The position numbers and the translations under genes were made by a program. This document shows positions 38,346-64,000 of a stretch of DNA of 64,000 nucleotides, one piece after another (the stretch's first letter is position 1; each line of letters starts with the position of its first letter). The notes under the pieces were generated by a model. It was not told the origin of the DNA. It was given only the letters and a program-made list of their open reading frames with translations, and searched no databases. The stretch comes from Actinobacteria bacterium OK074. Its GTDB lineage: Bacteria; Actinomycetota; Actinomycetes; Streptomycetales; Streptomycetaceae. The stretch is taken from contig LJCV01000275.1 in NCBI GenBank assembly GCA_001298575.1, forward strand, positions 62,001 to 126,000, read 5' to 3'.

Positions 38346-38352
38346 CGCTGGG

Positions 38353-41300: not shown

Positions 41301-41886
41301 CGGTACCGGGCCGCCCGTGACAGACCACCTCCAGCCGCAAAGCCTCCCCGAACCGCTCCCGCCACGGCTCCAGCAGCACCGCCGCCCGGTCCGGCCGCCC
41401 CGCCGCCAACGCCCGCCCCTCCTCGGACTCCGCCCCCAGCAACACGAACAACCCGCCGTCCCCGACGAGGTCCTCCCAGCCGATCCCCCCGGCCGACCCA
41501 GCCGACACCAGACGGCACAACCCGGCCCAGCCCGATACAGACCGGGCCACGAACACCGCCCGCAACGACGCCTCCACCACAAAAGCCCCACCCCCGGCCG
41601 GCGTACGCCGCCGCCCCAACCCGGCCGCACCCAACCCGGCCGCACCCGGCCCAGCCGGGCCGGGCCCCGGCGCCCCGGGCACCGCAAGATCAGCGCCGAA
41701 CAACGGCCGCACCCCGGCCCGCTCACACGCCTTCGCGAACCGCACAGCACCCGCCAGGGAATCCCGGTCCGTCAACGCCAGGGCATCCAGCCCCCGCTCC
41801 GCCGCACGCTCCGCCAACGCCCCAGGGTGGCTGGCCCCGTAACGCAGCGAGTAACCGGAGGAGACATGGAGATGCGTAAACGACAT
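38353..41886 (-). CDS. dnaE2: Error-prone DNA polymerase DnaE2/ImuC-like
   Basis: 1177 aa from ATG 41886 (AGGGGGTG upstream). It has an N-terminal PHP domain (THLHVSSGYSLRYGASHPG), a palm with PDIDLDVE at 428-435 and the third catalytic Asp in KIDVIG near 581, and the DnaE-typical TFQLESPGQRELV, FGSFGFAKAHAAAFA and OB-fold GATVLVAGVKVAT. DnaE2 polymerases copy damaged DNA without proofreading and need ImuB. It is transcribed with the ImuB-like gene, and a near-perfect LexA box lies 73 nt 5' of the ATG. All three catalytic acids are present. No imuA gene lies beside it. Confidence 0.88.
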   Translation of the reverse strand: MSFTHLHVSSGYSLRYGASHPGALAERAAERGLDALALTDRDSLAGAVRFAKACERAGVRPLFGADLAVPGAPGPGPAGPGAAGLGAAGLGRRRTPAGGGAFVVEASLRAVFVARSVSGWAGLCRLVSAGSAGGIGWEDLVGDGGLFVLLGAESEEGRALAAGRPDRAAVLLEPWRERFGEALRLEVVCHGRPGTGAGSLRLAARMAGFAAGQRVTAVLSNSVRYADPGQREVADILDSARLLVPVDVRDAAGLDSGQRWLKDAGEMERIAGQVAEAAGGRGALAQELLKATEETASACVVDPGEAFGLGRLNLPEPELVGAGAQSAGRVLAGRCAAGMMDRGYHRDAGRWDRLEDELRIIAGHGFASYFLTVAEVAREARRLGIRVAARGSGVGSLVTHLLGISPVDPVAHGLVMERFLSARRSALPDIDLDVESARRLEVYRAVRERFGGGRVATLAVYKTYRARGAIEDVARARGMDPGRAARLGKAFPHIRAKDVRAALAELPELREVAGEDHGRLWELVEALDGLPHEAAMHPCGLLVSNAGLLARTPVAPTGVENIVMSQFDKEDIEDTGHPKIDVIGVRMQSALAHAVAEIERVTGERLDLDDPAQVPPDDPATYDLISSGDTLGTFQLESPGQRELVQNLRPRSFLDLVIDISLFRPGPVAANMVSPLIEARDGRIQARYPHQDLKPVLEETEGQVVFHEQVIAILVTMTGCDRGMADEARRALSAPERRGRMRAWFAAAARTRGYPAQAVREVWEVLENFGSFGFAKAHAAAFAQPAYQSSWLKAHRTAALLAGLLTHDPGMYHKRVLVADARRHGVPLLLPDINRSQTAHAIELVSGKWGVRIGLSQVRGITEAESGRITDGQPYTSLGDFWQRARPSRPLAERLAQVGALDAFGARRDLLLKVTELHRSGHGNGSAAGQLPLETGESNGSGETSTGDRPAAATSAATSVVGLPLMSGSEQLAAELDVLGMDVSRHLLDEHRSLLADIGATPAADLPRLRHGATVLVAGVKVATQTPPVLHRTKSSPYGEVTAREPQRIIFVTLDDPTGLADLAFFEDSHPRCAHTVFHSTLLLVRGTVVRRPPRALSITATAAWNLAELIDLHREGGPAAVADYLARPHPTTRPAAAHRPLTQPTGSALHPWADLKPPGTPGHGRTFHHSSPGSAG

Positions 41887-42234
41887 ACACACCCCCTGGC
41901 ATCCATAACTACCCCTTTGTCCGTCTCGCTCCGTGAAGGCATCACCCTAACCCAAGACTCGCACGCCCGTTCGATAACCGCAGGCCGGGACCCCCAGCAT
42001 CGGCCCAGTGGCTGGGCCCGGCCACTCGACCCCACGAATCCTCTCCGTCCAGCGGCAGCCACCGCGATCGATCCCACGGAGCCGCCGGACCAAAACGGCC
42101 AACGTCGTGAACCGCCGCCCCGTCAGCACCGAAACCGCTCGATCCACTCGGACCACTCGCCGGGATCACCTCGCCCGCGGCCAGACCAACACACCAACAT
42201 CCCAGCAGCCATGGGGCGGCTTTTGACGACCCGT
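41887..42234. promoter_or_regulatory. 348-nt upstream region of the dnaE2 operon
   Basis: It holds the LexA-like site and, on the dnaE2 strand, a TAGGGT 19 nt downstream of TCGAAC that could be the -10, so the operator would cover the -35 region. No gene is seen in either strand. Confidence 0.5.
41959..41974 (-). promoter_or_regulatory. LexA (SOS) box upstream of dnaE2
   Basis: On the dnaE2 strand the sequence is TCGAAC-GGGC-GTGCGA. The actinobacterial LexA consensus is TCGAAC-N4-GTTCGA, so eleven of twelve half-site bases match. Position 73-88 nt before the ATG fits an operator over the promoter. LexA control of imuB/dnaE2 is established in mycobacteria; here it is inferred. Confidence 0.65.
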
Positions 42235-43886: not shown

Positions 43887-44651
43887 TTGTCCCCCACCCC
43901 CCTGGGCTGTTCACCGGAGCCCTCACCGTCCGAGGACTCCAAGACCCGGCCCACATCGCCCCCTGCCCGCTACCGAGTCTCCCCCCGATACCTCGCGGGA
44001 GACGATGACGCACTGACCGAACAGGTCTGTGACACGCTGCTGGCCCACCGCTGGACTCTGTGGACCACACGCCATCAGGAGCTGCATCTCTTCGACCCCG
44101 AACAACTCCGGATAGCCGAGTACCTCCCGCTCACCCCGCAACTGCTGCTGGACCACGATCCCGTCGTGTGGCAGTTCTGCGTACGCCCTCACCGTGAGGC
44201 GCTGCCCTTGTGGAACGCCTACGTCACGGCCAACACGCCGCACGAGGTGGTCACGGCATTCGTCGACGCGCTCGCCACCGAAAAGGACGTCGTCACGCCG
44301 GCCTCCCATCAAGAGGCACGTTCAGCCCTCGCCCCGCTGGCCCGCGCCGGATGGGCGCCCGATCCGACCGATCCCACGTGTACGTACTACGCGCCGCGAC
44401 TTCAGGCGTGCGCCACGTTGTGCCTACTGCCGCCCGAGGTCGAGGACAGCAACTCCCGTCCGTCCGCCCGTGGTTGGCTGGCCTGGGCCGAATCCGAGAA
44501 CGACGGCGTACGCCAGTGGGCGGCTGCGTTCAGCCCGTCCACCCCCGCCGCCCTGGTCACTCGGTTCTGCACCGCTCTCGCCAATCCGACTCCTGTCGGC
44601 CGTCACCAGTTGCCACCCGGCACAGGCAAGTACCTGACGGTCTCGCTGTAG
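43887..44651 (+). CDS. DUF317 (SPDY) domain protein
   Basis: 254 aa from TTG 43887, eight bases after GAAGGAG. The canonical motif is YRVSPRYLAG. The two half-domains begin near LAHRWTLWTTRHQELHLF and APLARAGWAPDPTDPTCTYY, and helices HEVVTAFVDALAT and PAALVTRFCTALA mark the repeat ends. It lies at the border of the low-GC region, apart from the other three DUF317 genes. Confidence 0.83.
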   Translation: MSPTPLGCSPEPSPSEDSKTRPTSPPARYRVSPRYLAGDDDALTEQVCDTLLAHRWTLWTTRHQELHLFDPEQLRIAEYLPLTPQLLLDHDPVVWQFCVRPHREALPLWNAYVTANTPHEVVTAFVDALATEKDVVTPASHQEARSALAPLARAGWAPDPTDPTCTYYAPRLQACATLCLLPPEVEDSNSRPSARGWLAWAESENDGVRQWAAAFSPSTPAALVTRFCTALANPTPVGRHQLPPGTGKYLTVSL

Positions 44652-44789
44652 TACGCCCTTCCCCGTTCTAACGACGAGGCCGAGTCTCGGCAGCCATGCA
44701 CGACATGGTCTCCGCTCGCCTCCCATACCCTCGACCGCCGGGCCACGCCGTGGCCCGGCGCCGTCTTGTACGTCCTGGCCGCGCGATCG

Positions 44790-45000
44790 TGAACAACTCG
44801 TACGAAAGCGCAATCGGGCGACAGCTCCTTGCAGGAGAGGAAGAAACTGCAGCGGATCGTGCGGCGGAACAGCACCAGCGCGGTGTACTTCCGCCGCGCG
44901 GTGCTACTGGCATCCGCCGGAAGACAGCATCCCGGTGATCTTGAAGCTCGTGTAAGCCGATGCTGCACGCATATCTGCGGTGGTGGCAACCAGCCCAGTG
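44790..45000 (+). pseudogene. IS630-type transposase remnant
   Basis: A short frame reads LQERKKLQRIVRRNSTSAVY, then FRRAVLLASAGRQ. After a frame slip it continues IPVILKLV-stop-ADAARISAVV. This matches the N-terminal HTH of IS630-family transposases common in Streptomyces (ERKKLQ...RRA..LLASAG...PVIA.LV.AD). A frameshift, a stop and loss of the DDE region show it is dead. No element ends were located. It marks the left side of the helicase island. Confidence 0.65.
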
Positions 45001-45069
45001 GCGAGAACGTTCCCATGCGCGCAGCGAGAAGGGTGTTGCTGGGGTGGCCGCCGGCCGTCCCAGCCGCCG

Positions 45070-45302
45070 TCAGGTCCACGGCTTGAGTCTGATCAGGTGG
45101 ACGGGCTGAGCGTCGAGGAAGGACTCATCGATCTCGACGTCGGTGATGCCGTCGCTGCGGCGTCGACCAGCGCCCGCTTCTCGCCGAGGAAATTTTTGAG
45201 CTCGATCCTGATTCTATATACCCAACCGTATGCGATGGGCTGAACACATTTCAGACGAAATTCATTCCACGCGTTCCGGAACAGGTGATCGTTCCCGGCC
45301 AC
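45070..45302 (-). pseudogene. Frameshifted small gene
   Basis: From GTG 45302 one frame reads MAGNDHLFRNAWNEFRLKCV, then IELKNFLGEKRALVDAAA. After about 45160 the sensible reading is in the next frame (GITDVEIDESFLDAQPVHLI, RLKPWT) to TGA 45072-45070. A one-base indel joins them into about 76 residues. The second half resembles the C-terminus of small regulatory or antitoxin-like proteins, but no family is assigned. Confidence 0.45.
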
Positions 45303-45368
45303 AATACTGGCTGCCCCATCACCGACACTGCTCCAGCCCAGACCGGTTTCCCCTTCACCCCATGGGGC

Positions 45369-45650
45369 TCATCGTTCCAGGTAAGCCGACAGGATGAGTT
45401 CGGACCCCGGGGAGAGCGCCACGATTTGGAGCCGGTCGCGGTCGCGGTAGGTCAAGCTTCCCGGCACGTCACCGACCGCCGGGTGATAGTCCCCACGGGA
45501 AGACGAGGTAAGGGCCTCAGTACGCAACCCTTCACGGCCCGCGAGCGAAATCGCGAGAGGGACGGAAAGGTCAACGTTGAGGTCTGCGAGCGTGGCGTTG
45601 ACGAACGTCTGGATATCCTGATCCGTCATCAGTTTCGGTTTTCCTGTCAC
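45369..45650 (-). CDS. Small hypothetical protein
   Basis: 93 aa from GTG 45650 (an ATG at 45629 is an alternative, with AGGAAA upstream). It begins MTDQDIQTFVNATLADLNVD after the optional leader, then DRDRLQIVALSPGSELILSA. Mixed helix and strand; no motif. It may belong to the transcription unit that starts at the RecD2-like helicase, lying 3' of it. Confidence 0.55.
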   Translation of the reverse strand: MTGKPKLMTDQDIQTFVNATLADLNVDLSVPLAISLAGREGLRTEALTSSSRGDYHPAVGDVPGSLTYRDRDRLQIVALSPGSELILSAYLER

Positions 45651-45910
45651 CGTTCCAGTATCGCGTTCAGAGGCTGGCTACGCGAGGCGATTCCATGTAA
45701 TGGCCCTCACCCTGATGAGATCGGCGCCTCGTTGCTATCGCGTGGACCGGCCGAATCCTGCGCCAAGGTGGTCTCCGGTTATGAAGTCCTGCTCAGCGGC
45801 AGGTTGGCGGTCGAGCGAACTCTCCCGTTCCGCTGCATGCGATAGATCCGGACACCGCGGCGCTCGGGCGACGGCAGATAGCGCCGCCCTCGCCTTGCCG
45901 CTGGAGCTGA

Positions 45911-48199
45911 TCACCAAACGAGCTGATCTGGTTCCCCGGCCCGGGGTGCGGGAATCTGTGTGGTTCGGCCGCAGATCCGGTGCTCCAGAGCCGTGTTGCG
46001 GCGGTTTCCGTTCTTGTTGTCCAGCGTCCATTGCACGGCGTCGTTCTGGAACAACAGGAAGACGCGGGCCCGCGCCCGGGTGACGGCGGTGTAGAGAAGG
46101 TTCCGGGTAAGCAGGAGCGGCGCGGTCCTGGGCAGGGCGATGATGACGTACGGGTATTCGCTGCCCTGGGCCCGGTGAACGGTCATCGCGTACGCGTGCA
46201 GGAGTCCGTCCAGTTCGGCGACGGGGTACGCCAGTTCCTGGCCTTCGAAATCGATGTGCAGTCGTGCTTCTTCCGCGTCGATGCCCTTGATGGTTCCTGT
46301 TGTCCCGTTGAACAGGCCGATGTCGCGCAGGGTACGGGTTTGTACGACCCGGTCGCCGACCCGCAGGATTCGGCCGTCGTGGTGGTGTTCCGCCTTGTCG
46401 GGTGCCGCCGGGTTGAGAGAGCGCTGAAGCCGGCTGTTGAGGTCGACAGCGCCGGCTTCGCGCTTCTTGGCGGGGCAGAGGACCTGGATGTCGTCGAGGC
46501 TCACGTGCGCCGGCCGCTTCTCGAAGAAGCGGACTACCTCGGCGGCGATGGCCTCGCCGGTCTGGCACGGGAGCATCGCGAACGCCGTTGGGTGGTGCAG
46601 CGGACGTTGGCCGTGCAGGATGCGGTGCGCGTTGTCGACGATGGGGGCGCTGTCGTTGCCCTGGCGGAAGATCCTGGTCAGGCGGGTCCGGGGGACGGCG
46701 GGCACTGCGAGCAGGTCTCGAAGGACAAGTCCCGGTCCTACGCTGGGTAGTTGGTCGACATCGCCGACCAGAAGCAAACGGCTACCGGGCGGGACCTTGG
46801 TGAAGAGGTCGGCGGCGAGTTGCACGTCGAGCATCGAGGCTTCGTCGACGACGATGAGGTCGGCGCTGTGCAACGGGCTGGAGTGGTCGAAGAGCGTGTC
46901 GCCTTCGGGTGCCCGCAGGAGCCGGTGGACTGTCTGGGCTTCCTGCCCGCTCATCTGTGCCAGGCGGTTGGCGGCTTTGCCGGTCGGCGCGGCCAGGGCG
47001 ACTGCGAGGCCGAGGGCGTGGGCCAGTGCGACGACGGTGCGCAGGGTGTGGGTCTTGCCGCATCCCGGTCCGCCGGTGAGGACGGAGAGGGTGTGGGTGA
47101 AGGCGGTCAGGACACCTTGGCGTTGTTCCGCGGTGAGGGTGCTTGCTTCGGGAAGGGCATCAAGTCCCTTCTGCCAGTTGCCGTTTGACGGGTTCCGGTC
47201 TGTGTCAAGGAGTCTGCGCACGTGCTCGGCCAGGGTGGTCTCGGCCCGGTGCATGCGGGGGGTGCTCACGATGTCCACCGCGTGGAAGACGTCGAGTTCT
47301 TCGCGTACGCGTAGAGGGATGCTCTCCATGATGACGTAGCCGATGCGGCGCAGTGAGGTCAGGGCCTCGCCGAGGACGTCGTCGTGCAGGATGAGGGCGG
47401 TGGCCGGGTCGCTGTCGTGGAGCAGCTTCCGTGTTCGTTCCAGGAGGTCGCCCACCGCAAGGTGGCAGTCACCGCGGCCGGCCGATTCCTCCAAGGCGGC
47501 GAGGAGTGCCGCTTTCAATCGTTCGGTGCTGTGTTTCGGTACCCCGGCGGCGAGCGCGATGCGGTCGGAGGTCCGGAAGCCGATGCCGCGTACCTCCTGG
47601 CAGAGCTTGTAGGGGGTATCCCGTACGACGGCGAGCGGGTTGCGCCCCGCCTTGTGGTAGTGGTCGTAGATCTTCACGGCCAGATTCGGGGAGATGTCCA
47701 GCCCTTGCAGGACGACCATGAGTTCCGCGACGGCCTTTTGTTCCTCCCAGGCTTCGAGGATTCCTCCGAGTCGTTTGGGGCCGATACCGAAGACTTCGAG
47801 CAGTTGCTCGGGGTCGGTGTCGATGATGTGCAGGGTCTGGTCCCTGAACCGTTCGACGATGGCCTGGGCCATCACGGGGCCGATGCCCCGGATCAGGCCG
47901 GAGGCCAGGTAGAGGCGGATGGCCCGTACTCCGGCGGGCAGGGTGCGCTCGCACCGCCGGGCCGCGAACTGGCGGCCGTATCGGGGGTGTCGTGTCCATT
48001 CTCCGGTGAGCCGGAGGCTCTCTCCGGGCTTGCAGCCGAACAGAGCCGTCCCCGTAGCAGTGACCTCGGAGTCTGGGGTCTCGTCGTCCGCGGTCAGCGC
48101 GATCCGGAGCACGGTTCGCTGGTCGTGGCTGATGTGCAGCAGGTGCCCGACGACTCCCTCGATGCGTTCCTCGCCGAGTGCGGGCTGTGTGGTGGACAC
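45911..48199 (-). CDS. RecD2-like SF1B DNA helicase
   Basis: 762 aa from GTG 48199 (AGAGAGG upstream). N-terminal RecD2 features: OB-like region, then helix-hairpin-helix repeats (GLIRGIGPVMAQAIVERF, LEVFGIGPKRLGGILEAW, EVRGIGFRTSDRIAL). Walker A GGPGCGKTHT is at 376-385, DEAS near 453-458, GDVDQLPSVGPG, and motifs V-VI (YAMTVHRAQGSEYPYVII, LYTAVTRARARVFLL). It would unwind DNA 5' to 3'. It is not part of RecBCD, since no recB or recC lies here. Divergent from a Ski2-like helicase about 1.1 kb away, with a zinc-module gene just upstream. Confidence 0.87.
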   Translation of the reverse strand: MSTTQPALGEERIEGVVGHLLHISHDQRTVLRIALTADDETPDSEVTATGTALFGCKPGESLRLTGEWTRHPRYGRQFAARRCERTLPAGVRAIRLYLASGLIRGIGPVMAQAIVERFRDQTLHIIDTDPEQLLEVFGIGPKRLGGILEAWEEQKAVAELMVVLQGLDISPNLAVKIYDHYHKAGRNPLAVVRDTPYKLCQEVRGIGFRTSDRIALAAGVPKHSTERLKAALLAALEESAGRGDCHLAVGDLLERTRKLLHDSDPATALILHDDVLGEALTSLRRIGYVIMESIPLRVREELDVFHAVDIVSTPRMHRAETTLAEHVRRLLDTDRNPSNGNWQKGLDALPEASTLTAEQRQGVLTAFTHTLSVLTGGPGCGKTHTLRTVVALAHALGLAVALAAPTGKAANRLAQMSGQEAQTVHRLLRAPEGDTLFDHSSPLHSADLIVVDEASMLDVQLAADLFTKVPPGSRLLLVGDVDQLPSVGPGLVLRDLLAVPAVPRTRLTRIFRQGNDSAPIVDNAHRILHGQRPLHHPTAFAMLPCQTGEAIAAEVVRFFEKRPAHVSLDDIQVLCPAKKREAGAVDLNSRLQRSLNPAAPDKAEHHHDGRILRVGDRVVQTRTLRDIGLFNGTTGTIKGIDAEEARLHIDFEGQELAYPVAELDGLLHAYAMTVHRAQGSEYPYVIIALPRTAPLLLTRNLLYTAVTRARARVFLLFQNDAVQWTLDNKNGNRRNTALEHRICGRTTQIPAPRAGEPDQLVW

Positions 48200-48288
48200 G
48201 GGAGGGGGCCTCTCTGGGGCATCGCCTTCGATGGGTCCACCCCCTGAACGCCGGTTTGGCGCTCCGGGGGTGGGCGGCGAGTTCACGG

Positions 48289-48948
48289 TCAGGCGGATTC
48301 TGCGGGACGGACCGGCCAGGTGCGTGGCCGCCGGACAGCGGGGGGAACGGGACGGCTGGGGCGGATGTTCACTTTCGGCTCACCGCGGAGAGCCCGCTGC
48401 TGCCGGCCGAGGCAGAACATGCACTGAGGCCCTCCGGGCGCGTCGCTGTCGATGGGCGCGCCCGGATGTTGCGGGCAGCCGGACCAGCTGCGTGGCCGGG
48501 AGAGTTCACGGGCGATGGTGAAGGCGGCATGGGTGAGTTCGGCGACGCGCTCGAAGTCCTGGTCGGGAGAGCTGAGTTCGAGTTCCACTGCGGCCTCGTT
48601 GAGCCTCTTCATGGTGTTGGTCAGCGCAAGACGGTTGTAAGGGGGACCGGGGATCGCCCACATGCTCTGCTGGGTCTGCGGGGCGGCCTTGACTCCGGGG
48701 TGGCCGATGCGTCGGTTGCCGTTGCAGAGCAAGCAGCGCCCCCAGTTCTCGGGCGCCTCGGTGTCGACCGGACCGTTGGGATGGCGTGTGCATCCCGTGG
48801 CGTTGCGGTCGGGAGCCATGTTCCGCGCCGTGTTGAACAAGGAGTACAGGCTGTCAGCGACCGGTTCGTATTCCGTCGGGTCCGCGTGTGCGGAGAGCCA
48901 GTTGATCCGGTCGTTCAGGCTGGGCAGGCTCCGGTGCAGTTCGGCCAT
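48289..48948 (-). CDS. Tandem zinc-module protein
   Basis: 219 aa from ATG 48948. Two copies of one unit: a helix (SLYSLFNTARNM; AAFTIAREL) followed by C-x2-H...C-x2-C (C53, H56, C72, C75; C158, H161, C176, C179) with shared HP-x-(G/A)P-(V/I)D. Each likely binds one zinc. No Shine-Dalgarno precedes the ATG, so the mRNA may be leaderless. It lies 89 nt before the RecD2-like gene and is probably its partner. I know no named family. Confidence 0.75.
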   Translation of the reverse strand: MAELHRSLPSLNDRINWLSAHADPTEYEPVADSLYSLFNTARNMAPDRNATGCTRHPNGPVDTEAPENWGRCLLCNGNRRIGHPGVKAAPQTQQSMWAIPGPPYNRLALTNTMKRLNEAAVELELSSPDQDFERVAELTHAAFTIARELSRPRSWSGCPQHPGAPIDSDAPGGPQCMFCLGRQQRALRGEPKVNIRPSRPVPPAVRRPRTWPVRPAESA

Positions 48949-49310
48949 CAGTGGAGGACGCCGCGGGGGAACCCGATACGAAGAGTGTCGTTCCGTATCC
49001 ACCTGGCAACCATGGCGTAAAGGGGTGGCGCTCCGCCGCACCCGGGGACGGTCGCTTGGCGCCCGTCCGGGAAGCGGCAGTGACCGGCCCCGGCCGCGCA
49101 ACCTGTGGCGTTCACTCCCGAGTACTCCGGCGGGACCGACTCCGGGCGCTGGGGAAGACCACCGGAAAGAGTGCACTGGGCCAGTCTGTTCACGGCATCA
49201 CACCAGCCCCTGCCGCTACGTGGAGTCAACGCCTGCCCGGGGTGCTCGGAGCAGGTCCCCACGCGGAACTACCGTAGGGCAACCAGGCATGGCGATTTCA
49301 AGGAACGTGG
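48949..49310. promoter_or_regulatory. 362-nt divergent promoter region of the helicase island
   Basis: It lies between the zinc-module gene (leftward) and the Ski2-like helicase gene (rightward) and must hold both promoters, so both units could share one regulator. Only the AAGGAA at about 49300 before the helicase GTG is clear. No gene or strong hairpin was found. Confidence 0.5.
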
Positions 49311-52300
49311 GTGCCCAGGACCTCCGATACCGCACCGGCGGCCGGCGCCGGGACAGTTCCCGGCGAACGGACAGTCGCCCAGCTGGTGTTCGACCGGTGG
49401 CACGTCGAGCTGACCGGCGAGCACCCGTCCCGGTTCCACGAACCGGGATGGGTGTATACGGAGGAGGTTCCCTTTCCGTGCCCCTCCTGCCATAGGGGGC
49501 TGCACACTCTGCGGAAACCGTTTGTCCTCCGGGACCGGGAACAGCACTTCGCCGCCTTGGTGTGCCCGCCCTGTGCCCTGGCGTACACGCTGAGGGATCT
49601 GGGCCTGACGGGGTACGCGGGGCTCAAGAAGCCGCCGCCCAGGACCACACCACCGCCGAATCCACCAGTGTCTTCTCCGCCGAGGTCATCAACACCACAG
49701 CGCCCGGCCGGGGCCGGGCTTCCGGCCGTGTCAGGGGCCGTGTGGGGGCCGCCGCGTCCGCGGCAGCACGAGCGCGCGCAGTGGCCCGCCGACCTGCCAC
49801 GGCCCGTCGGCCCCGAGACACGCAGGCTTCACTGGGTCAAGATCACGCAGCCGGACTGGAGTCCGGAATCTCTGCCGGACGACTGCGACCTGCGCGTGAT
49901 TCTGCCGGACTCCGAGCGCTTCCAGGGCCTCGCCGACCGCCTGGGCGAGTTGTCGGTCCCCTTCCGCCGGATGCCGCACTGGCTGGAGTCGGAGGAGGTG
50001 ACGACCGTCGACGAGCAGGGCGTGCGGACCGATCCGGTCGCCCGTCCTCGTGTCCCGGGCGAGAGTTCCAGCTGCTCGCCGGTCGGCGGGCTCGGCGCCT
50101 ACGCCGCCCGGGACTGCTTCGACCTCGCGTGGGAATCCCTCGCCCCCGCCCCGCGGGAGGCACCCCCGTACCGGCCGGTGACCGACCTGGTCCCGGAGGC
50201 TTGGGCTCCCTTCCTGCCGTACCCCACCTTCAACCCGTCGCAGTCCGTAGCCGTCCCGGTCGTCCTCGGCAGCGACGGTCACGTCGTCGTGGTGGCGCCC
50301 ACCGGGGCCGGCAAGACCCAGATCGGTATGGTCGGGGCCCTCAAGGCGTACTTCGCCGGCCGCAAGGTCGTCTGGCTCGTGCCGCAGCGCTCCCTCACCG
50401 ACGAACTCGACCGGGACCTGGAGCTGTGGCGCCGCAACGGACTACATGTGGTCCGGCTCTCCGGCGAACAGGCCACCGATCAGGAGCAGATGAAGCAGGC
50501 GGACATCTGGATCAGCACCACCGAGAAGTTCGAGGCCCTGTGCCGTTCCGCCAGCATGCGCCAGACGCTCGCGGACGTCGGCTGCCTCGTCGTGGACGAG
50601 ATCCATCTTCTCGGCGACCCGGTCCGGGGCCCGATTCTGGAGGCCCTGCTCGCCAGGGTCCGGGAAACCGCCACCGAAGTGCGGATCGTGGGGCTGTCCG
50701 CGACCGTCTCCAACGCCGAGGACATCGCCGAGTGGCTCAACGCCGAGCTCGTCCGCGTCACATGGCGCCCGACCCGGCTGGTCTGGCAACTTCCGCTGCT
50801 CCCCGCGAGCTTCGACCGCACCTCTCAGCAGGGGGCACGCACCAACGCCGTGGTGCGCATCACGACCGCGTTCGCCGCGGAGCAAGGCAGCGTGCTCGTC
50901 TTCTGCGGCAGCAAGCGCAACGTGCGGACCACCGCCCTGGCAATCGCCGCCAGCCGGGGCACCTCCACCACCAAGGTGGACCCGGACGACGCCGACAAGG
51001 TGCACCAGGTCTGCCGGGCGGCCGGGGTGGGACTGCACTACAGCGACTGGCCGTACAAGCACGATACGGTCGCGGACTTCACCCGCCGCGAGACCGATGT
51101 CGTTGTCGCCACCTCGACTCTCGCCGCCGGCGTCAACCTGCCCGCCCGCGCGGTGGTGGTCCGCGACACCCGCATCGGCCTCGACGACATCGAAGTCTCC
51201 ATGGTCCAGCAGATGTTCGGGCGAGCAGGCCGGGCGGGTGCCGGGGAACGGGAGGGCTGGGCCTACCTGCTCACCGACGAGGCCGAGCGCCCGCTGTGGC
51301 AGGCCAGGCTCGCGGCCGGATACGCCGTCTCCTCGCAGATCGGCAACAGCCTGCCCGATCACGTACTCGCGGAGGTCGTGCAGCGACGGATCACCACGGT
51401 GCCCGAGGCATACGCCTGGTGGAAGCAGACGCTCGCCTACCACCAGGGCCACCACGACCTGGCCCCGCTGACCGACGCCCTGCAGTTCCTCGTCAGAGCC
51501 GAGTACCTGGAACACCGCCCCCTGGACGAATCCGACATCGAACTGACAGCGACCGAACTCGGGCTTCTGACCGCACGGTTGATGGTCTCGGCCGTCTGGG
51601 CCCACGAGGTCCGCACCCACGTGGGCCGACTGGAACTGCCCACCGCCCCGGAGACCGCGGAAGGCGCGCTGATCGAGACCCTCAGCAACATCCTGCCGGA
51701 CTTGGCCGTGGCACCGGTCGGAGAACGGATGCGCGACTCTGTCCACCGGCTGCTGAAGAAGAAGGGATACCTGCACGCCGACGCACAGCCGCAGGAGTAC
51801 AGCGGAGGACTCGCGGCCCCGCGCGGGCTCGCGGCCGGGGATTTCGCCCGTGCCTGCCTGCTGGCCGTCGCCCGCAGCCCGCGGTCCTTCCGCGCCGGCC
51901 GCCGCCACGTCGGTGGAATCCCGGTCGAAGCCATGCACCCCGTCTTCAACGAGGCAGAGCGCTACCTCTACTGGCTCGGTGCACAGGGAACGCTGAACTC
52001 TACGCACCCCTGGGCAGCCATCGTCGCCTCCGACCTCGCGCGCCGTATCCGCTGGCGCCGGATCGGCCCAAGCCGCGGCTCCGGCCGTCTCTTGTGGATC
52101 CTTGAGCAGATGGCCACACCTGCGAAGTCCCCCGAACTCGTCCCGCAGATGTGGACATTGGCCAGGACGAACACCGTCCACTCCCCCGACTGGAATACCG
52201 GGGGACGCCCGGAATTGTGCCGGATCTCCGAAGAAGAATACACGGCGCTGCTGCGTGAACGCACCACGGGAAGCCGGGTCGACCTGCGGGAAAAGGAAAT

Positions 52301-52517
52301 CGTCTGGCAGGCACCGGTAGGCCACTCTGTCGTCGTCTGGAACGGCCCGCACTACCACCGCACCGTCAGCGACGGCGAAGAACACACCACCCCGTCCCCT
52401 CTCACAGAAGAAGAAAACGGGAACAACCTCCAACAAGGTATCGCTGTTTTCAGCCGCCGTGGAGATGGTGTCGCCACCGGCTGGCTCTCGGACTACTCCC
52501 GCACTTCCAAGGAGTAA
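49311..52517 (+). CDS. Ski2-like DEIH-box helicase with N-terminal zinc ribbon
   Basis: 1068 aa from GTG 49311 (AAGGAA five bases upstream). A C4 zinc ribbon lies at about 57-88 (CPSC...CPPC), then a Pro-rich linker. The SF2 core follows: motif I PTGAGKTQ near 330, motif II VVDEIHLL near 428, motif III GLSATVSN near 462, motif VI QQMFGRAGRAG near 632. The 'AGVNLPAR' and 'VQQMFGRAGRAG' signatures identify the Ski2/Hel308 group. A 400-residue C-terminal helical region follows. It would remodel DNA or RNA. The size and zinc fusion differ from housekeeping helicases and from known defence helicases I can recall. Confidence 0.88.
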   Translation: MPRTSDTAPAAGAGTVPGERTVAQLVFDRWHVELTGEHPSRFHEPGWVYTEEVPFPCPSCHRGLHTLRKPFVLRDREQHFAALVCPPCALAYTLRDLGLTGYAGLKKPPPRTTPPPNPPVSSPPRSSTPQRPAGAGLPAVSGAVWGPPRPRQHERAQWPADLPRPVGPETRRLHWVKITQPDWSPESLPDDCDLRVILPDSERFQGLADRLGELSVPFRRMPHWLESEEVTTVDEQGVRTDPVARPRVPGESSSCSPVGGLGAYAARDCFDLAWESLAPAPREAPPYRPVTDLVPEAWAPFLPYPTFNPSQSVAVPVVLGSDGHVVVVAPTGAGKTQIGMVGALKAYFAGRKVVWLVPQRSLTDELDRDLELWRRNGLHVVRLSGEQATDQEQMKQADIWISTTEKFEALCRSASMRQTLADVGCLVVDEIHLLGDPVRGPILEALLARVRETATEVRIVGLSATVSNAEDIAEWLNAELVRVTWRPTRLVWQLPLLPASFDRTSQQGARTNAVVRITTAFAAEQGSVLVFCGSKRNVRTTALAIAASRGTSTTKVDPDDADKVHQVCRAAGVGLHYSDWPYKHDTVADFTRRETDVVVATSTLAAGVNLPARAVVVRDTRIGLDDIEVSMVQQMFGRAGRAGAGEREGWAYLLTDEAERPLWQARLAAGYAVSSQIGNSLPDHVLAEVVQRRITTVPEAYAWWKQTLAYHQGHHDLAPLTDALQFLVRAEYLEHRPLDESDIELTATELGLLTARLMVSAVWAHEVRTHVGRLELPTAPETAEGALIETLSNILPDLAVAPVGERMRDSVHRLLKKKGYLHADAQPQEYSGGLAAPRGLAAGDFARACLLAVARSPRSFRAGRRHVGGIPVEAMHPVFNEAERYLYWLGAQGTLNSTHPWAAIVASDLARRIRWRRIGPSRGSGRLLWILEQMATPAKSPELVPQMWTLARTNTVHSPDWNTGGRPELCRISEEEYTALLRERTTGSRVDLREKEIVWQAPVGHSVVVWNGPHYHRTVSDGEEHTTPSPLTEEENGNNLQQGIAVFSRRGDGVATGWLSDYSRTSKE

Positions 52518-52866
52518 CCACGGCGAACACGCCGACCGATTCCCCTGAAATCGGAAAGGCCATTTCCGGAGCCACAACCCTCGCATCCTCAAATACGACC
52601 GAATACACTCTCCACCTCGGCAACCCGGCCCGAAGAAGTAAGCCATGGCTTTGCCCACCCCGGCACCGGCACCACCGTCGCAGCGACCGATGGAAACGTC
52701 ACATCGTCAAACCCGGGCCCGCCACGGAATCATCCGATCGGAGGAGAAGGGAGATACCTTTCTGCTCAGCCGTTCCCGCCCTTCCGGCTCATGCACCGCA
52801 ACTCGCCCGCGTCCTGCCCGACGCATTATCGGGACCAACCGAGTCTCAAGTCTGGAGATCACCGCT
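52518..52866 (+). other. 349-nt gap between helicase and partner gene
   Basis: AAGGAG at the helicase stop is followed by an open frame beginning ACG (TPTDSPEIGKAISGATTLAS), without a conventional start and losing protein character after about 45 codons. It could be a tiny or decayed gene, or simply a leader. Transcription probably continues into the next gene. Confidence 0.35.
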
Positions 52867-54333
52867 ATGGGCAAACGCGGGCGCCGCCGGGAACGAGAAG
52901 CAACCGGCGGGAAACGCGCGAAGACGCCGCAACTAGTCTTCACAGACCTTCCCGACAGCACCCAGCCCCGGTTGCGTCTCGCACTGAAGCAGGCTTCATC
53001 AGCGAAGGCCCGTGAACTGTGCCACCGATACTGGTCGTTGGACTCAGAAGGTCGCTGGACACACCACGTCGGCGAACTCGGCCACACCACTCAGATCGAG
53101 ACCGCGGTCGCCAACGTCTCGCACGTCCTCCTGCTCACCCACGTCTGCTCGGTCTGCGGGGAGCCCACCCAGGTAACAACGCGGCGGCAGGCACGCCTCC
53201 TCGCAGGACCCCGGCTCGACCGCAGGCCGGCCGGCTACCGCTGTCCTCCTTGCCGAACGGCACAGGCCGACGAACTCAAACAGCGGAACGAGGCGCTCCG
53301 CGCCGAGCAGGAAGAAGCCCAGCAGCGGGCAGAACGCGAACAGCAGCTGCTGACACAGCGGATCGCCGACTTCCGGGAGCAGGAAGACGAACGGGAGCCC
53401 GACCCCGACCCGCAAGTGCAGGACATCGGCGCCGCAGCCGTCGTCGTACTCACCGCGATGCTCCAGCACGCCCACGCCCACCCCATGGGGCCGATTCCCA
53501 GCTTCGAGCAACTTGGCCCGGGCACGTGGACGGGCTTCCCCGAGGAAGACCTGCATGCGGTCAAAGAGCTGTACGCCCGCAACCTGCTCGCCGTACATCC
53601 CAGCGCCCCGGCCGCCGGCACCATGCGGGGCCAGAACGGTGAAATCGGTTACGCGGCGCAGCTGGCGAGCTGGCGGCTGATCGGCGGGACCACACACACG
53701 CAGGCCGTCGTCGACAAAGCCAGGAAATACCTGCAACTGGCGCCCGGAGAAGCAGCTGCAACAGCCCGGCAGGCCCTGAGCACGCTGATCAGGCGTATGG
53801 AGGTGACCGACATGGTGACCTATTTCAACGAGCAGCTGATCGCGGAATACCGCTACCCCGAGGTCCCCCCAGCGCGCGCACACGAACTCGCCACACTCAT
53901 CGAACGCGGCTTCGAGCAGGGCTTCACCACGGGCCAGATGATCTGCCTCGTCTGGCGTGCCGCTGACTCCGCCTCGTCCTGGAAAGAGCGCAAGGGCCTC
54001 GGCCCGGGCGAGGCATCCTCCGCTGCCGTCACCACTCTGGAAGGGAAAATCCTCGACGCGATCGGGCGCCGACAGCCCGTACCCGAGTACGACGCCCGCC
54101 CCTGGCACCTGCCGCTGCCCGCCCTCGCGCCGGGCCGCGACCTGCACACCCGCGTCGCCCGTGTCCGGGACCGCAGCCTGATCGCCCAGTGCGGGAAATG
54201 CGACGAGATGGGATTCATCGACACAGAGGAGGCCGACGGACGGATGGTCCTGATCCGCTGTCTGCACCCGACCGACATTCTCCCCTCCCCTCGATCATTT
54301 CCTGACGAAACCACAGGGCCGGAGGCCACGTGA
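52867..54333 (+). CDS. Zinc-ribbon/coiled-coil protein paired with the Ski2-like helicase
   Basis: 488 aa from ATG 52867 (GGAGA eight bases upstream). It has a basic N-terminus (GKRGRRREREATGGKRAKT), a C4 zinc ribbon at about 95-126 (CSVCG...CPPC), and a charged coiled coil at about 134-178 (ELKQRNEALRAEQEEAQQRA). A helical domain at 190-420 follows, then a second zinc site near 442-465 (CGKC...C). No catalytic motif is visible. It probably binds nucleic acid and directs the helicase. No named family recognised. Confidence 0.8.
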   Translation: MGKRGRRREREATGGKRAKTPQLVFTDLPDSTQPRLRLALKQASSAKARELCHRYWSLDSEGRWTHHVGELGHTTQIETAVANVSHVLLLTHVCSVCGEPTQVTTRRQARLLAGPRLDRRPAGYRCPPCRTAQADELKQRNEALRAEQEEAQQRAEREQQLLTQRIADFREQEDEREPDPDPQVQDIGAAAVVVLTAMLQHAHAHPMGPIPSFEQLGPGTWTGFPEEDLHAVKELYARNLLAVHPSAPAAGTMRGQNGEIGYAAQLASWRLIGGTTHTQAVVDKARKYLQLAPGEAAATARQALSTLIRRMEVTDMVTYFNEQLIAEYRYPEVPPARAHELATLIERGFEQGFTTGQMICLVWRAADSASSWKERKGLGPGEASSAAVTTLEGKILDAIGRRQPVPEYDARPWHLPLPALAPGRDLHTRVARVRDRSLIAQCGKCDEMGFIDTEEADGRMVLIRCLHPTDILPSPRSFPDETTGPEAT

Positions 54334-54458
54334 GTACACCGTCGACGATCTCAACGAAAGGATTCACACCAGCTAATTCACGAACCTATGAGGTCAATTC
54401 CCAGAACCGTCACGCCAATTCTCTGCAACCGCCAGCATAATAGGCCGAGTTTCCGGTT

Positions 54459-54848
54459 CTAGAAGTAGATCCCCCGAAATGTCCCGTCGAAACCAAGTTT
54501 CTGGACGACGGCCTCACCGCTGGATTGGTATTCCACCGGCGGTCCCCCCTTGCTGGCCTCGAACCACATGGGGGTGAGTTCAGGCTCACGCCACTCGTTT
54601 CCGCAACGGCATCGTACGTAGACGGCGTCCTCCACCATGAGGATCAGCCAGTCCTCACGGGCACTGCACTGGGTGCAGACCACGGGGATCCCGGCGACCG
54701 ACAGAGGGTCCCGGTGCGGGAAAGCCTGACCCACCACTTCGGTCGGCGCAGGAAGGCGAAGCTCCAGAGGGATGTCTGAACACCCGGCGGCATCAGCAGT
54801 CGGCACTCCCTCCAGGGCACCGTCGCTGTCGCTGCTGTATGGGTCCAT
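54459..54848 (-). CDS. Small zinc-ribbon protein
   Basis: 129 aa from ATG 54848 (GAAGGGAA upstream). The C-terminal half holds a CTQC...CRCG zinc ribbon around residues 58-81 (IPVVCTQCSAREDWLILMVE, VYVRCRCGNEWREPELTP). The N-terminal 35 residues are acidic. Its promoter region abuts the left end of the IS21 element, so expression may be altered by the insertion. It is the third zinc-binding protein gene of the island. Confidence 0.7.
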   Translation of the reverse strand: MDPYSSDSDGALEGVPTADAAGCSDIPLELRLPAPTEVVGQAFPHRDPLSVAGIPVVCTQCSAREDWLILMVEDAVYVRCRCGNEWREPELTPMWFEASKGGPPVEYQSSGEAVVQKLGFDGTFRGIYF

Positions 54849-55036
54849 TGCGGTCGTTCCCTTCTGCCTGGTGCCCGCCATCGTCTGTGGAATACCGGCG
54901 TCGTGTCCACTCCTCAACTCTTTAGCCCGTCGCTGTCAACGCTCTCGCAAAGTTGAACCCCTGTGAGTCCCGGAAAATTGACCCCCGGGGTTGTGCGGTT
55001 GGTAGGGCAGTGCAGCCGACCGGGCACCATTGGCGC

Positions 55037-55277: not shown

Positions 55278-56099
55278 TCAGCCGTGGTGGGCGCGGTTCT
55301 CCTTGGCCAGGAGTTCGCGTCGTTGCCGGGTTCGGTAGGAGTCTCCGGTGAGAGTGAGGACCTCGGCGTGGTGAACCAGGCGGTCGATCATGGCGGCCGC
55401 GACGACGTCGTCGGAGAAGGTCTCTCCCCAGCGCCCGAAGGGCAGGTTCGAGGTCACCATCACCGAGCCCTGCTCATAGCGCGAGGCTATGAGCTGGAAG
55501 AACAGGTTCGCGGCGTCCTGGTCGAAGGGGATGTAGCCGACCTCGTCGATGATGATCAGCTTGTAGCGGCGGATCTTCTTCAGCTCTGCTTCCAGCCGGC
55601 CTGAGTGGTGGGCCTCGCCCAGCCGGGAGATCCAGTTGCTGGCCGTGTCGAACAGGACCGAGTGACCGGCATGGGCGGCCTTGACCCCGAGTCCGATAGC
55701 CAGGTGAGTCTTCCCGATCCCGGGCGGCCCGAGGAGGATCACGTTCTCTGCCTTCGCGACGAACGTGCCGGTTGCCAGATGTGCGAGAACGTCACGCCGG
55801 AGTGACGGCAGGTGGTCCAGGTTGAAGTCCTCCAGGGTCTTGACCTGCGGAAAGTGGGCCGTGCGGATCCGCATCGTGGTGCCCTTGGACTCCCGGTCGG
55901 CGACCTGCCGCTGCAGCAGCGCGGCCAGGTACTCCTCGTGGGACCAGTTCTGGTCGCGGGCCTGGTCGGCCAGTTCCTCCCAGAAGGCGCCGATGGTGGG
56001 CATCTTCAGGACCCTGGTGAGGTAGGCGAGCATGGACGGCATGCCGTCCTTCGGCGTGCTCGCCGTGGTGGCCGACTTGGGCTTGGTGGCTGTGCTCAC
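55278..56099 (-). CDS. istB: IS21 transposition helper ATPase IstB
   Basis: 273 aa from GTG 56099, two bases after the istA stop region. Walker A GPPGIGKTHLAIGLG is near 124-138 and Walker B KLIIIDEVGYIPF near 180-192; VMVTSNLPFGRWGETFSDD is a typical sensor region. It assembles on DNA and selects the target for IstA. Standard length. Confidence 0.93.
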   Translation of the reverse strand: MSTATKPKSATTASTPKDGMPSMLAYLTRVLKMPTIGAFWEELADQARDQNWSHEEYLAALLQRQVADRESKGTTMRIRTAHFPQVKTLEDFNLDHLPSLRRDVLAHLATGTFVAKAENVILLGPPGIGKTHLAIGLGVKAAHAGHSVLFDTASNWISRLGEAHHSGRLEAELKKIRRYKLIIIDEVGYIPFDQDAANLFFQLIASRYEQGSVMVTSNLPFGRWGETFSDDVVAAAMIDRLVHHAEVLTLTGDSYRTRQRRELLAKENRAHHG

Positions 56100-56102
56100 G
56101 TA

Positions 56103-57356
56103 TCACTTCGCTTTCGTGGAGGGCGGGTTGAAGTCCACGCCGAACAGGGCGTCGTAATCGGGCAGGGCCCGCAGGACGACGGCATGGCCGTCGGCGTGCT
56201 GGCGGATCGCTGCCTGACGTCGTTGGCGGTCCAGCACGAGGGCTTCGCGCATCTTCGCGGCGGTGGCCGCGTGGGCCGGATCGGTGATGACTCCCTGCCT
56301 GGCCCAGGACCGGGGGTGATGGGCGACGACGCGGCCGTCGCAGTAGACGGTCACGGTGTCCAGGGAAGCGGTGACGTCGACGAAACGGCCGATGGCCTGC
56401 GGGTCGACCGAGTAGTCGACAGTGTCGACGCGGACGTAGTAGTCCCGGCCGAGCCGGATCCGGTGGTTCAGGCCGATCGGTGGGGTGACCGGCGGCAGCG
56501 GGATCATCGCCAGGTAGTCGGTCTCCAGCAGGTCGACCGGCCGGCCCTGGATCGACCGTACTGTCCGCGAGTTCGCGCGGACGAGCCAGTCGTCCAGTTG
56601 CTGGTTGAAGTCCGCGGGCGAGGAGAACTGGCGGCCGGGCAGGAACGAGGTCTCCAGGTACTGGTTGTTCCGCTCGACCAAACCCTTGAACTCCGGATCC
56701 CGCGGCGGGGCGAGCTTGATCCTGATGGCCAGGGTGCCGGCGAAGGCTGCCGCCGGGGCTGTCACCTTCCCCGTCCCGCCGATGGCGGCCTCGCGGTCCC
56801 AGACCAGCATCTTCGTGACACGGCCGATGCCGTGGATCAGGGACCACATGCCGGACAGGATGTCGCCGGCCTGCCGGGACGGGATCATCACCGCGGTCAT
56901 GAAACGGGAGAAGCCCAGCGTCATCACGAGCACCGGCAGCACTCGCTGCTGTCCGGACCCGACCTGCACCTTCGTCTCCGGGAACCACAGGTCGCACTGG
57001 GTGACCTCTCCGGGGTCGTAGGCGACCCGATCGACCGGGTCGATGCCCACATACTCCGGCCGGACCACTGCCAGCCGCTTGCGCAGCGGCGGCAGCGAGT
57101 ACGGCCAGCCGATCCGCTCGGCGATCACCGGCGCCGGCATCCGCGGCCATTCCCGCAGAAGAGCCCGCATCTGCGGCTCGTAGGCGTCGGCGACCTGGCC
57201 CCGCGGAGCCCGCTCGTACTTCGGCGGTCGGTCGGAGTTCAACGCGGCCCGCACCGTGTTCCGGGCCACCCCCAGCCGCCGCGCGATCTCTTTGATGGGC
57301 ACACCCTCCGCCCGATGCAAACGGCGTATCTCTGCCCAGTCCTCCACGTTCAGCAC
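56103..57356 (-). CDS. istA: IS21 transposase IstA
   Basis: 417 aa from an initiation codon at 57356. An N-terminal HTH (VPIKEIARRLGVARNTVRAA) precedes a DDE core: QCDLWFPET (Asp), MLVWDREAAIGG (Asp) and FKGLVERNNQYLE (Glu). The C-terminus has a beta region (VTVYCDGRVVAHHPRS). Intact and of standard length. Confidence 0.93.
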   Translation of the reverse strand: MLNVEDWAEIRRLHRAEGVPIKEIARRLGVARNTVRAALNSDRPPKYERAPRGQVADAYEPQMRALLREWPRMPAPVIAERIGWPYSLPPLRKRLAVVRPEYVGIDPVDRVAYDPGEVTQCDLWFPETKVQVGSGQQRVLPVLVMTLGFSRFMTAVMIPSRQAGDILSGMWSLIHGIGRVTKMLVWDREAAIGGTGKVTAPAAAFAGTLAIRIKLAPPRDPEFKGLVERNNQYLETSFLPGRQFSSPADFNQQLDDWLVRANSRTVRSIQGRPVDLLETDYLAMIPLPPVTPPIGLNHRIRLGRDYYVRVDTVDYSVDPQAIGRFVDVTASLDTVTVYCDGRVVAHHPRSWARQGVITDPAHAATAAKMREALVLDRQRRQAAIRQHADGHAVVLRALPDYDALFGVDFNPPSTKAK

Positions 57357-57400: not shown

Positions 57401-58012
57401 GGGTCAGTCTTACGGGAGCGTCGACAGTCGCATGGCGAGAACCTGGTTCCAACTCATGACCCATCGGTTCAGGGACGAGAGAAGGAGCAACTGCCCGTAC
57501 GCCAAGCCAACGCTACGCCGCCTGCCGCGCGGCCTCCGGGGCGCCGAGCAGCACCTGGTGACGGTCCGGCGTACCGAAGCCTGCCCTGGAGGTCGTTCGG
57601 CATGTTCCGGCACTCGCCGCGCCGACCCGGCGCAGCAGCTCGGCCGAGTCGGTCTTCCCCACCGCCGGGGTAACGCGTCCGCCACGACCGGTCCGCGTCT
57701 CTTCCGGGCCCTGGCCATGGACGTGATCCTGCCGCAGCGCCTCGCCCGGCCGGGACGATTACGCTCCGGCAGCCCGTAGAAGTGACGGTGGGGCTCCTGC
57801 TGACGCCGTTGGCATCGACCACTTACGCGGGAGACGGAGGCTCATTGGCCGTACGTGACCACCCGATCGATGACGGCCGCCGCTGAACGGGACGCCCGCG
57901 CGCTCCCGTAGGTATCTCTCGGACGTGGGCCGCACTGGGCGGCGATCCACTGGGAGGGCAGGGAGGGACTGCACCTTCGGGCTGCCGTACGGCAGCCCCA
58001 TCGGCTCTCCGG
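57401..58012. other. 612-nt gap between the IS21 element and the next gene
   Basis: A minus-strand open frame (about 57524-57760) has natural composition in part (KTDSAELLRRVGAAS, RHQVLLGAPEAARQAA) but no start codon, so it may be the 3' end of a gene cut off by the IS21 insertion or by decay. A palindrome is listed separately. Nothing else convincing. Confidence 0.35.
57979..57998. terminator. 20-bp perfect palindrome
   Basis: GGGCTGCCGT and its exact complement meet without a loop, 15 nt after the stop of the minus-strand gene at 58013. It is likely a terminator for that gene. Confidence 0.6.
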
Positions 58013-58348
58013 TTACCTCACGGCCCTTACCGCCCGAAGCCCCCGGTCCGCGCTGTTCCCCGGCTTCTCCGGCACCACTACCTCCGCCCGACGCTCCGTG
58101 TTCGGGTAGTAGTCGAACGTCTCGGCCACTGCCGGGTGCTCCTGGAACACGGCATCGTCCAGCGCCGTGCGCGCTGCGTCCAACGCCTCGATCGCCACCT
58201 CAAGCCGCTTCGCCGGAAACGCCCTCGGTCCTGTCCGCGGGTACGCGTTCGACAAGGTGACCTGTTCCCTCACCAACTGGTCCCGCACGCCGGAGAGTAC
58301 CTGCCCCAGGCGCAGGTGCTCGGGATGGGAGAGACCGCGCTTCGTCAT
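58013..58348 (-). CDS. Helical hypothetical protein
   Basis: 111 aa from ATG 58348 (GAGGAA eight bases upstream). Helical core: RLGQVLSGVRDQLVREQVTL, then AKRLEVAIEALDAARTALDD, followed by a Tyr/Pro/Arg-rich end. Size and helical pattern fit small partner proteins; no family assigned. A palindrome terminator follows. Confidence 0.65.
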   Translation of the reverse strand: MTKRGLSHPEHLRLGQVLSGVRDQLVREQVTLSNAYPRTGPRAFPAKRLEVAIEALDAARTALDDAVFQEHPAVAETFDYYPNTERRAEVVVPEKPGNSADRGLRAVRAVR

Positions 58349-63535: not shown

Positions 63536-64000
63536 GCTGGTGGTGTCTGCTGGTTGAGAAGGCGGGTCGCTGCGTTGCCGACGCGTTCGGCGGCTGTCCG
63601 GACGACGCGGATCGTGGTGTCGATGTGGGGCGCGTCGCCGCCGGTGTTGAGGACTCTGGCGACTTGGTTGAGGTTGCTGCCGACCCAGCCGAGGTGGCGG
63701 CGGGCGGCGAAGAGTTCGGCGATCACTTCGCGTTCGGAGGCGACCGTGGCGGCGGTGCGTTCGAGGTCGCGGGCGGCGGTGAGGGCCGCGTGCGCGAGGA
63801 AGCCGGCGAGGGAGAGGCCGCACGCGTCGGCGGCTGCTTTGACGGCTGTGAACTCTTCGTCGTTGAAACGGGTGTTGGGCTGGTGTCGGCGTTTGCGGTC
63901 GGGGCTTTGTCGGGGGCGCTGGCGGGCGCGTCGCGCGGGCGCGGGGTCGGTCTGGCGGGTTGCGTCGTCGTGCTGGGTTTCTCCCCTCTGTGGCTGCGGT
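63532..64000 (-). CDS. mobC-like: MobC-like relaxosome protein (5' end beyond window)
   Basis: Open from the right edge to TGA 63534-63532 (156 codons visible). The basic, low-complexity N-terminal part is followed by a ribbon-helix-helix region (RFNDEEFTAVKAAADACGLS, LAGFLAHAALTAARDLERTA) and helices (REVIAELFAARRHLGWVGSN, LNQVARVLNTGGDAPH). This is the MobC pattern, in which the protein binds oriT and helps the relaxase. The oriT probably lies just upstream, outside the window. Confidence 0.85.
   Translation of the reverse strand, partial: PQPQRGETQHDDATRQTDPAPARRARQRPRQSPDRKRRHQPNTRFNDEEFTAVKAAADACGLSLAGFLAHAALTAARDLERTAATVASEREVIAELFAARRHLGWVGSNLNQVARVLNTGGDAPHIDTTIRVVRTAAERVGNAATRLLNQQTPPA

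Follow-up and report, generated by a model that had tools for sequence, protein, structure and literature searches.

A predicted Hel308/Brr2-class helicase encoded beside an additional RecD2 on a streptomycete mobile element

The DNA analysed here (the window) is a stretch of 64,000 nucleotides from Actinobacteria bacterium OK074, a member of the Streptomycetaceae (assembly GCA_001298575.1, contig LJCV01000275.1, positions 62,001 to 126,000). It contains a helicase island that a preliminary description, made from the sequence alone, had proposed as a candidate five-gene defence system. All five open reading frames (ORFs) are present where that description had placed them. The minus strand encodes a RecD2 helicase of superfamily 1B (45911-48286) and, adjoining it, a protein of 219-236 amino acids (aa) with tandem CxxH...CxxC modules (48289-48999, with the start between 48948 and about 48999). 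A region between the divergent genes (49000-49310) separates these from a plus-strand gene for a 1068-aa superfamily 2 (SF2) helicase (49311-52517), which is followed on the same strand by a gene for a 488-aa partner protein of no recognised family or fold (52867-54333). The fifth gene encodes a small zinc-ribbon (CxxC) protein on the minus strand (54459-54917).

Pfam searches identified DEAD and Helicase_C domains in the 1068-aa protein, and its helicase motifs are intact by reading. An N-terminal C4 zinc ribbon covers approximately residues 45-95, with CPSC at residues 57-60 and CPPC at residues 85-88, 28 residues apart, which confirms the helicase with a fused ribbon described earlier. A CxxC pair precedes Walker A in 60 of the 79 helicase sequences listed, with a spacing of exactly 28 residues in 57 and more than one pair in 4. 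A profile built from 49 sequences was compared with the PDB and scored highest with SLH1 (407 bits), ASCC3 (399 bits) and Brr2 (377 bits), followed by Hel308 (276 bits), DNA polymerase theta (158 bits) and HamB (100 bits). The AlphaFold2 (AF2) model of the helicase has a mean predicted local distance difference test score (pLDDT) of 87.3 and aligns with the Hel308 structures 9b15, 2zj5 and 2va8 over 571-606 residues (Z 31.2-33.7, 4.2-5.4 Å). The alignment with 9b15 covers model residues 288-952 (Z 33.7, 571 residues, 4.2 Å). Brr2 (5urm) aligns over 704 residues at a looser 7.2 Å (Z 32.9), reaching model residue 1058, and ASCC3 (8alz) aligns with a Z of 30.4. A fold comparison against viral models returned general helicases only. 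The profile scores and the fold alignments of the predicted model place the 1068-aa protein on the Hel308/Brr2 branch rather than with HamB.

The best NCBIfam matches are Hel308-type models, and both fall below the cut-off (PRK02362, 229.2 bits against 887; helicase_Hel308, 183.8 bits against 1200), so the protein is not filed as Hel308. It shares with Hel308/Hjm/HELQ of archaea and metazoa the arrangement of two RecA domains, winged helix and ratchet, which is present in the predicted model. It differs in being bacterial and in adding the N-terminal C4 ribbon, a PLD-like domain and a C-terminal beta domain. Compared with the Brr2, ASCC3 and SLH1 cassettes of eukaryotes, the window protein is a single cassette, carries a zinc ribbon and is bacterial. 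Hel308 is described as lacking in bacteria and as preferring 3' to 5' unwinding (PMC12278908).

Residues 165-260 of the helicase align with the PLD domain of a Rhodococcus relative (PLDc_2, E 1.4e-11); the profile match, made against this single sequence, is 17.7 bits. The HxKxxxxD catalytic motif is absent before Walker A in the window helicase and present in one of the 79 sequences listed (L008, Rhodococcus). This segment is probably a degenerate (dead) PLD-like alpha/beta domain, on moderate evidence. The Rhodococcus relative is itself plasmid-borne (L008:7527-10907) and has a PLD domain with the HxKxxxxD motif (HEKELIAD) fused to the helicase.

The RecD2-type helicase of the preliminary description was verified. 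The protein matches TIGR01448 over residues 60-770 with 668.2 bits against a cut-off of 500, and its Pfam domains are HHH_RecD2, SH3_13, UvrD_C_2 and OB_YrrC. Members of the RecD2 family translocate 5' to 3'. A RecD2 match was found in 81 of 81 Streptomyces genomes searched, and the source genome has another RecD2 on a separate contig (C12), which is 47% identical over query residues 74-776 and has one in-frame TGA in the aligned stretch. By this comparison, the window protein is an additional copy carried by the element, and it differs from RecD2 at large in this location and in its zinc-module neighbour.

Relatives of the helicase were collected to determine how often the two genes occur together. 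A genome collection yielded 117 relatives, 80 of which were kept as loci (cited by L numbers). Genes at these loci were called with a simple script that used G+C by codon position, which missed the helicase in L020, L058, L059, L062 and L081. RecD2 occurs in the fetched flanks of 6 of the 80 helicase loci (L011, L029, L047, L054, L085 and L089). The 80 loci span 1.70 Mb, and 0.22 RecD2 neighbours are expected, assuming 8.5-Mb genomes with 1.1 RecD2 copies. At a seventh locus, from Saccharopolyspora spinosa, the open helicase frame is immediately preceded by what is left of a RecD2 C-terminus (L044:9688-9822; L171 comes from this genome as well).

The helicases with a RecD2 neighbour occupy four places on the helicase tree: the window with L011, L029/L047, L054 with L085, and L089. 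L029 and L047 are near each other with unpaired rows between them. The tree is of a quick kind, and the test of the 'beside RecD2' label counts labelled rows only; at least four of the pairings look independent. The paired RecD2 copies form three groups, namely the element type, an Actinokineospora type and a housekeeping group that includes L089. RecD2 is a second genomic copy in L011, L029 and L047 and the only genomic copy found (E <= 1e-30) in L054, L085 and L089. The arrangement also varies. The pairs of L054 and L085 are divergent and lie 67 and 80 bp apart as called. The pair of L011 is divergent with the zinc protein between RecD2 and helicase, and that of L089 (Jidongwangia) is divergent with a cold-shock-domain gene between (L089:9411-9824). 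The L029 pair is convergent, and the L047 RecD2 lies about 5.6 kb from the helicase, beside a partner relative. A similar pair (L158) is present in G548, another genome of the Actinokineospora family and the third with such a pair. This repeated coming-together in related bacteria suggests that the two motors may work together on DNA.

Several observations weigh against such a partnership. Neither RecD2 nor a remnant is present in the fetched flanks of 73 of the 80 loci, some of which are short. Of the 22 helicase loci from the Actinokineospora family, 3 have RecD2 next to the helicase, and these three are closely related to one another. Element-type RecD2 is also present in L122, L123 and L141, where the helicase is missing. 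The resemblance of the helicase to the RNA helicases Brr2 and SLH1 means that its substrate may be RNA. No relaxase like that of the window lies within the stretches of L029, L047, L054, L085 and L089, so conjugation cannot account for the pairing at large. A CxxC pair is absent from 19 of the 79 helicase sequences, including the paired L054, L085 and L089. The zinc theme proposed earlier is therefore not what holds the pair together. The recurrence of the pair in separate places on the tree gives support to the earlier suggestion that the two helicases belong together.

The full five-gene set was found at 1 of the 80 loci, L011 of S. acidiscabies. L141 has RecD2, the partner and both zinc proteins in another order, and the helicase is absent. 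The 12 partner loci outside the window include RecD2 in 3 and the helicase in 2 within the stretch, several of these stretches being short. One fixed system of five genes was rejected on the basis of the single complete set and of L141, and it is the helicase-RecD2 pair, not the whole stretch, that should be tested first.

The tandem zinc protein contains two CxxH...CxxC modules by reading, as described, and both are repeated in L141. It has relatives in L011 and L141 and a weak one-module relative in L144; it matches nothing in Pfam or PADLOC, and its one NCBIfam match (E 0.18) is attributed to chance. The frame upstream to 49176, where the gene had been thought to start, is broken in L011, and DNA identity to L011 drops to 0.48-0.50 at 49020-49139. 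Because the extension is broken and not conserved, the start is placed near 48948-49000. Across the region between the divergent genes, identity to L011 is below that of both flanking genes over most of the length. A shared promoter had been assumed here; no sigma-70-like site was found at 48900-49400, a result that is not decisive for Streptomyces.

The partner has two CxxC pairs and a predicted long helix, in agreement with the zinc-ribbon/coiled-coil protein first described, the helix coming from a low-confidence model. The length was revised from 562 to 488 aa with the start at ATG 52867, because relatives begin at an MGKR-like start. The model was built on three sequences, has a pLDDT of 59.5 and gave no usable fold match. 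The partner has no Pfam match, no PDB match at E <= 0.001 and no match among the viral contigs. Matches were found in 8 of 392 Streptomyces genomes, including its own and one that is just a short piece, and in 3 plasmid records. A plasmid replication locus was also considered as a reading: a DUF721 gene is close to two of the plasmid relatives, with ParB near one of these as well, and is not near the third. We infer that the partner and the tandem zinc protein go with the RecD2 of the element, since L141 has them with RecD2 and lacks the helicase.

The small zinc protein was confirmed as a CxxC protein. In L011 and L141, its relatives directly follow the relaxase gene, at distances of 26 and 50 bp, respectively, and by this gene order the small zinc protein belongs to the relaxase operon of the conjugative element.

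Markers of a mobile element in the window bear out the location assigned earlier and consist of a relaxase, a NikA-like protein, NlpC/P60 and a weak EccE-like match. The MobA/VirD2-like relaxase (61805-63535, minus strand) matches PF03432 with 35.9 bits, its sole Pfam match at E <= 0.001, and is 52% and 57% identical to its relatives in L011 and L141. The L011 copy also matches PF03432; the L141 copy has no Pfam match at E <= 0.01. A NikA/MobC-like mobilisation protein (63532-63999, minus strand) lies at the window edge and matches PF21983 with 36.9 bits and PF05713 with 19.1 bits. The NikA-like protein and DUF4913 are common to the window, L011 and L141. In the window, an IS21-type insertion (55278-57356, minus strand) and other genes separate the relaxase from the island. 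This insertion consists of IstB (55278-56099; Pfam IstB_IS21, E 1e-76) and an ORF taken as IstA by position only (56103-57356). The IS21 border on the right therefore stands; for the reported IS630, no Pfam match at E <= 0.1 was found in the seven ORFs tested between 44424-45845 and 57410-58348.

We tentatively favour a reading in which the stretch belongs to a conjugative element of a streptomycete and carries, side by side, two DNA motors that would process branched or single-stranded DNA. This reading builds on the predicted folds, the motifs, the conjugative context and the recurrent pairing, which we regard as established at the level of sequence and modelling. From family knowledge, the Hel308-class motor would move 3' to 5' and RecD2 5' to 3', and with opposite polarities the pair could open branched DNA on both strands. 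The N-terminal domains of the helicase may bind the junction. The likeliest use would be at stalled forks and on single-stranded intermediates during replication, transfer or establishment of the element. Judged by sequence, the pair may serve replication and transfer of the element, repair or the removal of invaders.

An anti-phage or anti-plasmid module, in which the helicase would recognise foreign or damaged DNA and clear it with RecD2 and the zinc proteins, is on the unlikely side. A patchy distribution of the helicase would fit this idea. The 80 relatives are Actinomycetota by name, except one contig of a metagenome-assembled genome labelled Melainabacteria. Matches to the helicase core were found in 5 of 121 Streptomyces genomes, counting that of the window (E <= 1e-70), and 22 of 150 genomes from the family of Actinokineospora had a relative (E <= 1e-100). 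As sampled here, the helicase is patchy in Actinomycetota and mostly without a conserved neighbour; no conserved minus-strand gene just upstream was seen by eye across the loci. PADLOC models also match both motors. The helicase scores up to 110.7 bits with HamB, 95.2 with SngC and 88.8 with BrxHI, and RecD2 scores 249.8 bits with typeIV_RecD, 179.9 with PDC-S68 and 162.7 with RecD_like. These matches could be explained by shared motor cores, and alone they do not tell defence from repair. Partner matches to PADLOC models were at E 0.0093 or worse, and both small zinc proteins had none. The five proteins contain no nuclease or other effector recognised in Pfam, PADLOC and NCBIfam scans, which argues against defence, as does the single complete five-gene set.

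PADLOC 2.0.0 detected no complete described anti-phage gene set, the helicase and RecD2 matching motor models of several systems. The stretch as a whole matched no described system in Pfam, PADLOC or NCBIfam, in line with the preliminary description, and no account of the helicase family or its RecD2 pairing was found in the titles and abstracts of a mostly open-access literature. Hachiman was rejected since the four other proteins include no HamA (DUF1837 in Pfam, HamA in PADLOC). HamB and the window helicase are alike in the Ski2-like SF2 core (100 bits). They may differ at the N-terminus, where HamB has an alpha-helical domain that binds HamA and the model of the window helicase shows mainly strands with an alpha/beta portion (residues 45-260), predicted as a ribbon and an alpha/beta domain.

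The neighbourhood of the helicase was compared with more distant genes. Near genes (164) lie no more than two genes and 2.5 kb from the helicase, and 141 of them were scanned with PADLOC at E <= 1e-15. The near set left out the Wadjet clade described below, four of the six STAND loci, near-duplicate loci and loci with the helicase missed by the caller. The 23 unscanned near genes include RecD2 of L029, L054, L085 and L089, the L011 RecD2 piece, two STAND-type genes and L091 genes. The control consisted of 140 genes, out of 355 separated from the helicase by a minimum of 4 kb and four genes, with the L047 RecD2 dropped. Matches were counted per family and protein, so that one protein may count twice. 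There were 13 matches among the 141 near genes and 10 among the 140 distant genes. By these counts, defence families are no more frequent close to the helicase than at a distance, with the exception of one clade.

In that clade (L020, L026, L028, L033, L046 and L082; 6 of 80), the helicase gene is followed at about 200 bp by a complete, co-oriented JetABCD set of Wadjet type II, which speaks for a defence role. JetA, JetB and part of JetC also lie about 1.4 kb downstream in G123 (L185), where the stretch ends, and L031 has JetA and part of JetB about 8 kb beyond the helicase. In this clade, the helicase gene immediately before the Wadjet type II genes may be an accessory component of the system that has gone unrecognised. 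The window helicase differs, with no Jet match in the window or the preceding 62 kb (C276:1-62500) at E <= 1e-3. One five-gene defence system is not supported; the region may have a defence role of some kind, which is likewise unsupported. In another clade (L013, L015, L016, L022, L024 and L036), the helicase has two neighbours, a TPR protein of about 950 aa that weakly matches NTPase/STAND families and a small protein of roughly 154 aa.

It is quite unlikely that RecD2 is the transfer helicase of the element, unwinding the nicked strand, with the Hel308-like gene as helper or cargo. This explanation was considered because the MobA/VirD2-like relaxase has no recognised helicase domain, the relaxase domain being its only Pfam match. 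TraI-type relaxases carry RecD2-like helicase domains. Relaxases with a helicase activity are described in PMC5422253. Consistent with such a role, the RecD2 and relaxase genes of the window, L011 and L141 point the same way and are no more than 14 kb apart. Element-type RecD2 is found without such a relaxase in the stretches L122, L123, L029 and L047, and the paired RecD2 of L054, L085 and L089 is the only copy found in the genome; both argue against it. Chance cargo, in which the mobile element has collected unrelated genes that do not act together, is very unlikely: the full set in L011 only, the different gene order in L141, the few partner loci with RecD2 or helicase and the nearby IS21 would agree with it, and it is opposed by the frequency of RecD2 near the helicase, well above expectation and in separate lineages, and by the decayed RecD2 beside the open helicase frame at L044.

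Beyond the two-motor reading of the element, a broader and doubtful proposal is that Actinomycetota have a Hel308/Brr2-class DNA helicase family of their own, whose members often bear a zinc ribbon and a dead PLD-like domain. In physical association with RecD2, these would form a motor of two polarities acting on stalled forks and on foreign or conjugating DNA, and both conjugative elements and Wadjet II loci would have recruited them. Such a motor would be like RecB/RecD in kind, not by descent. A patchy actinobacterial family of Hel308 architecture that recurs next to RecD2, and next to Wadjet II in one of its clades, connects fork-repair motors with conjugative elements and plasmid immunity in a way that can be tested.

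Two further relatives of the helicase lie in other settings. Viral contigs gave one helicase match, on an IMG/VR contig where the relative is flanked by two more SF2 helicase-like proteins with DpdE/ZorD-type matches (L091:2-6759). On a Frondihabitans plasmid (L007:8001-10423), the relative matches in two pieces and may be interrupted.

Other genes of the window were also noted. An ImuB-like polymerase (Pfam IMS) and a DnaE-like ORF identified by reading (37374-41892) are a possible mutagenesis cassette about 4 kb from RecD2; neither has a match in the L011 or L141 stretches. An N6/N4 DNA methylase (19609-20715) adjoins DUF4913 on the element. A DDE transposase of the Pfam DDE_Tnp_1_4 group (32372-33352) lies outside the island, and an MFS transporter with an ATP-grasp enzyme (28086-30700) may form a small biosynthetic cargo.

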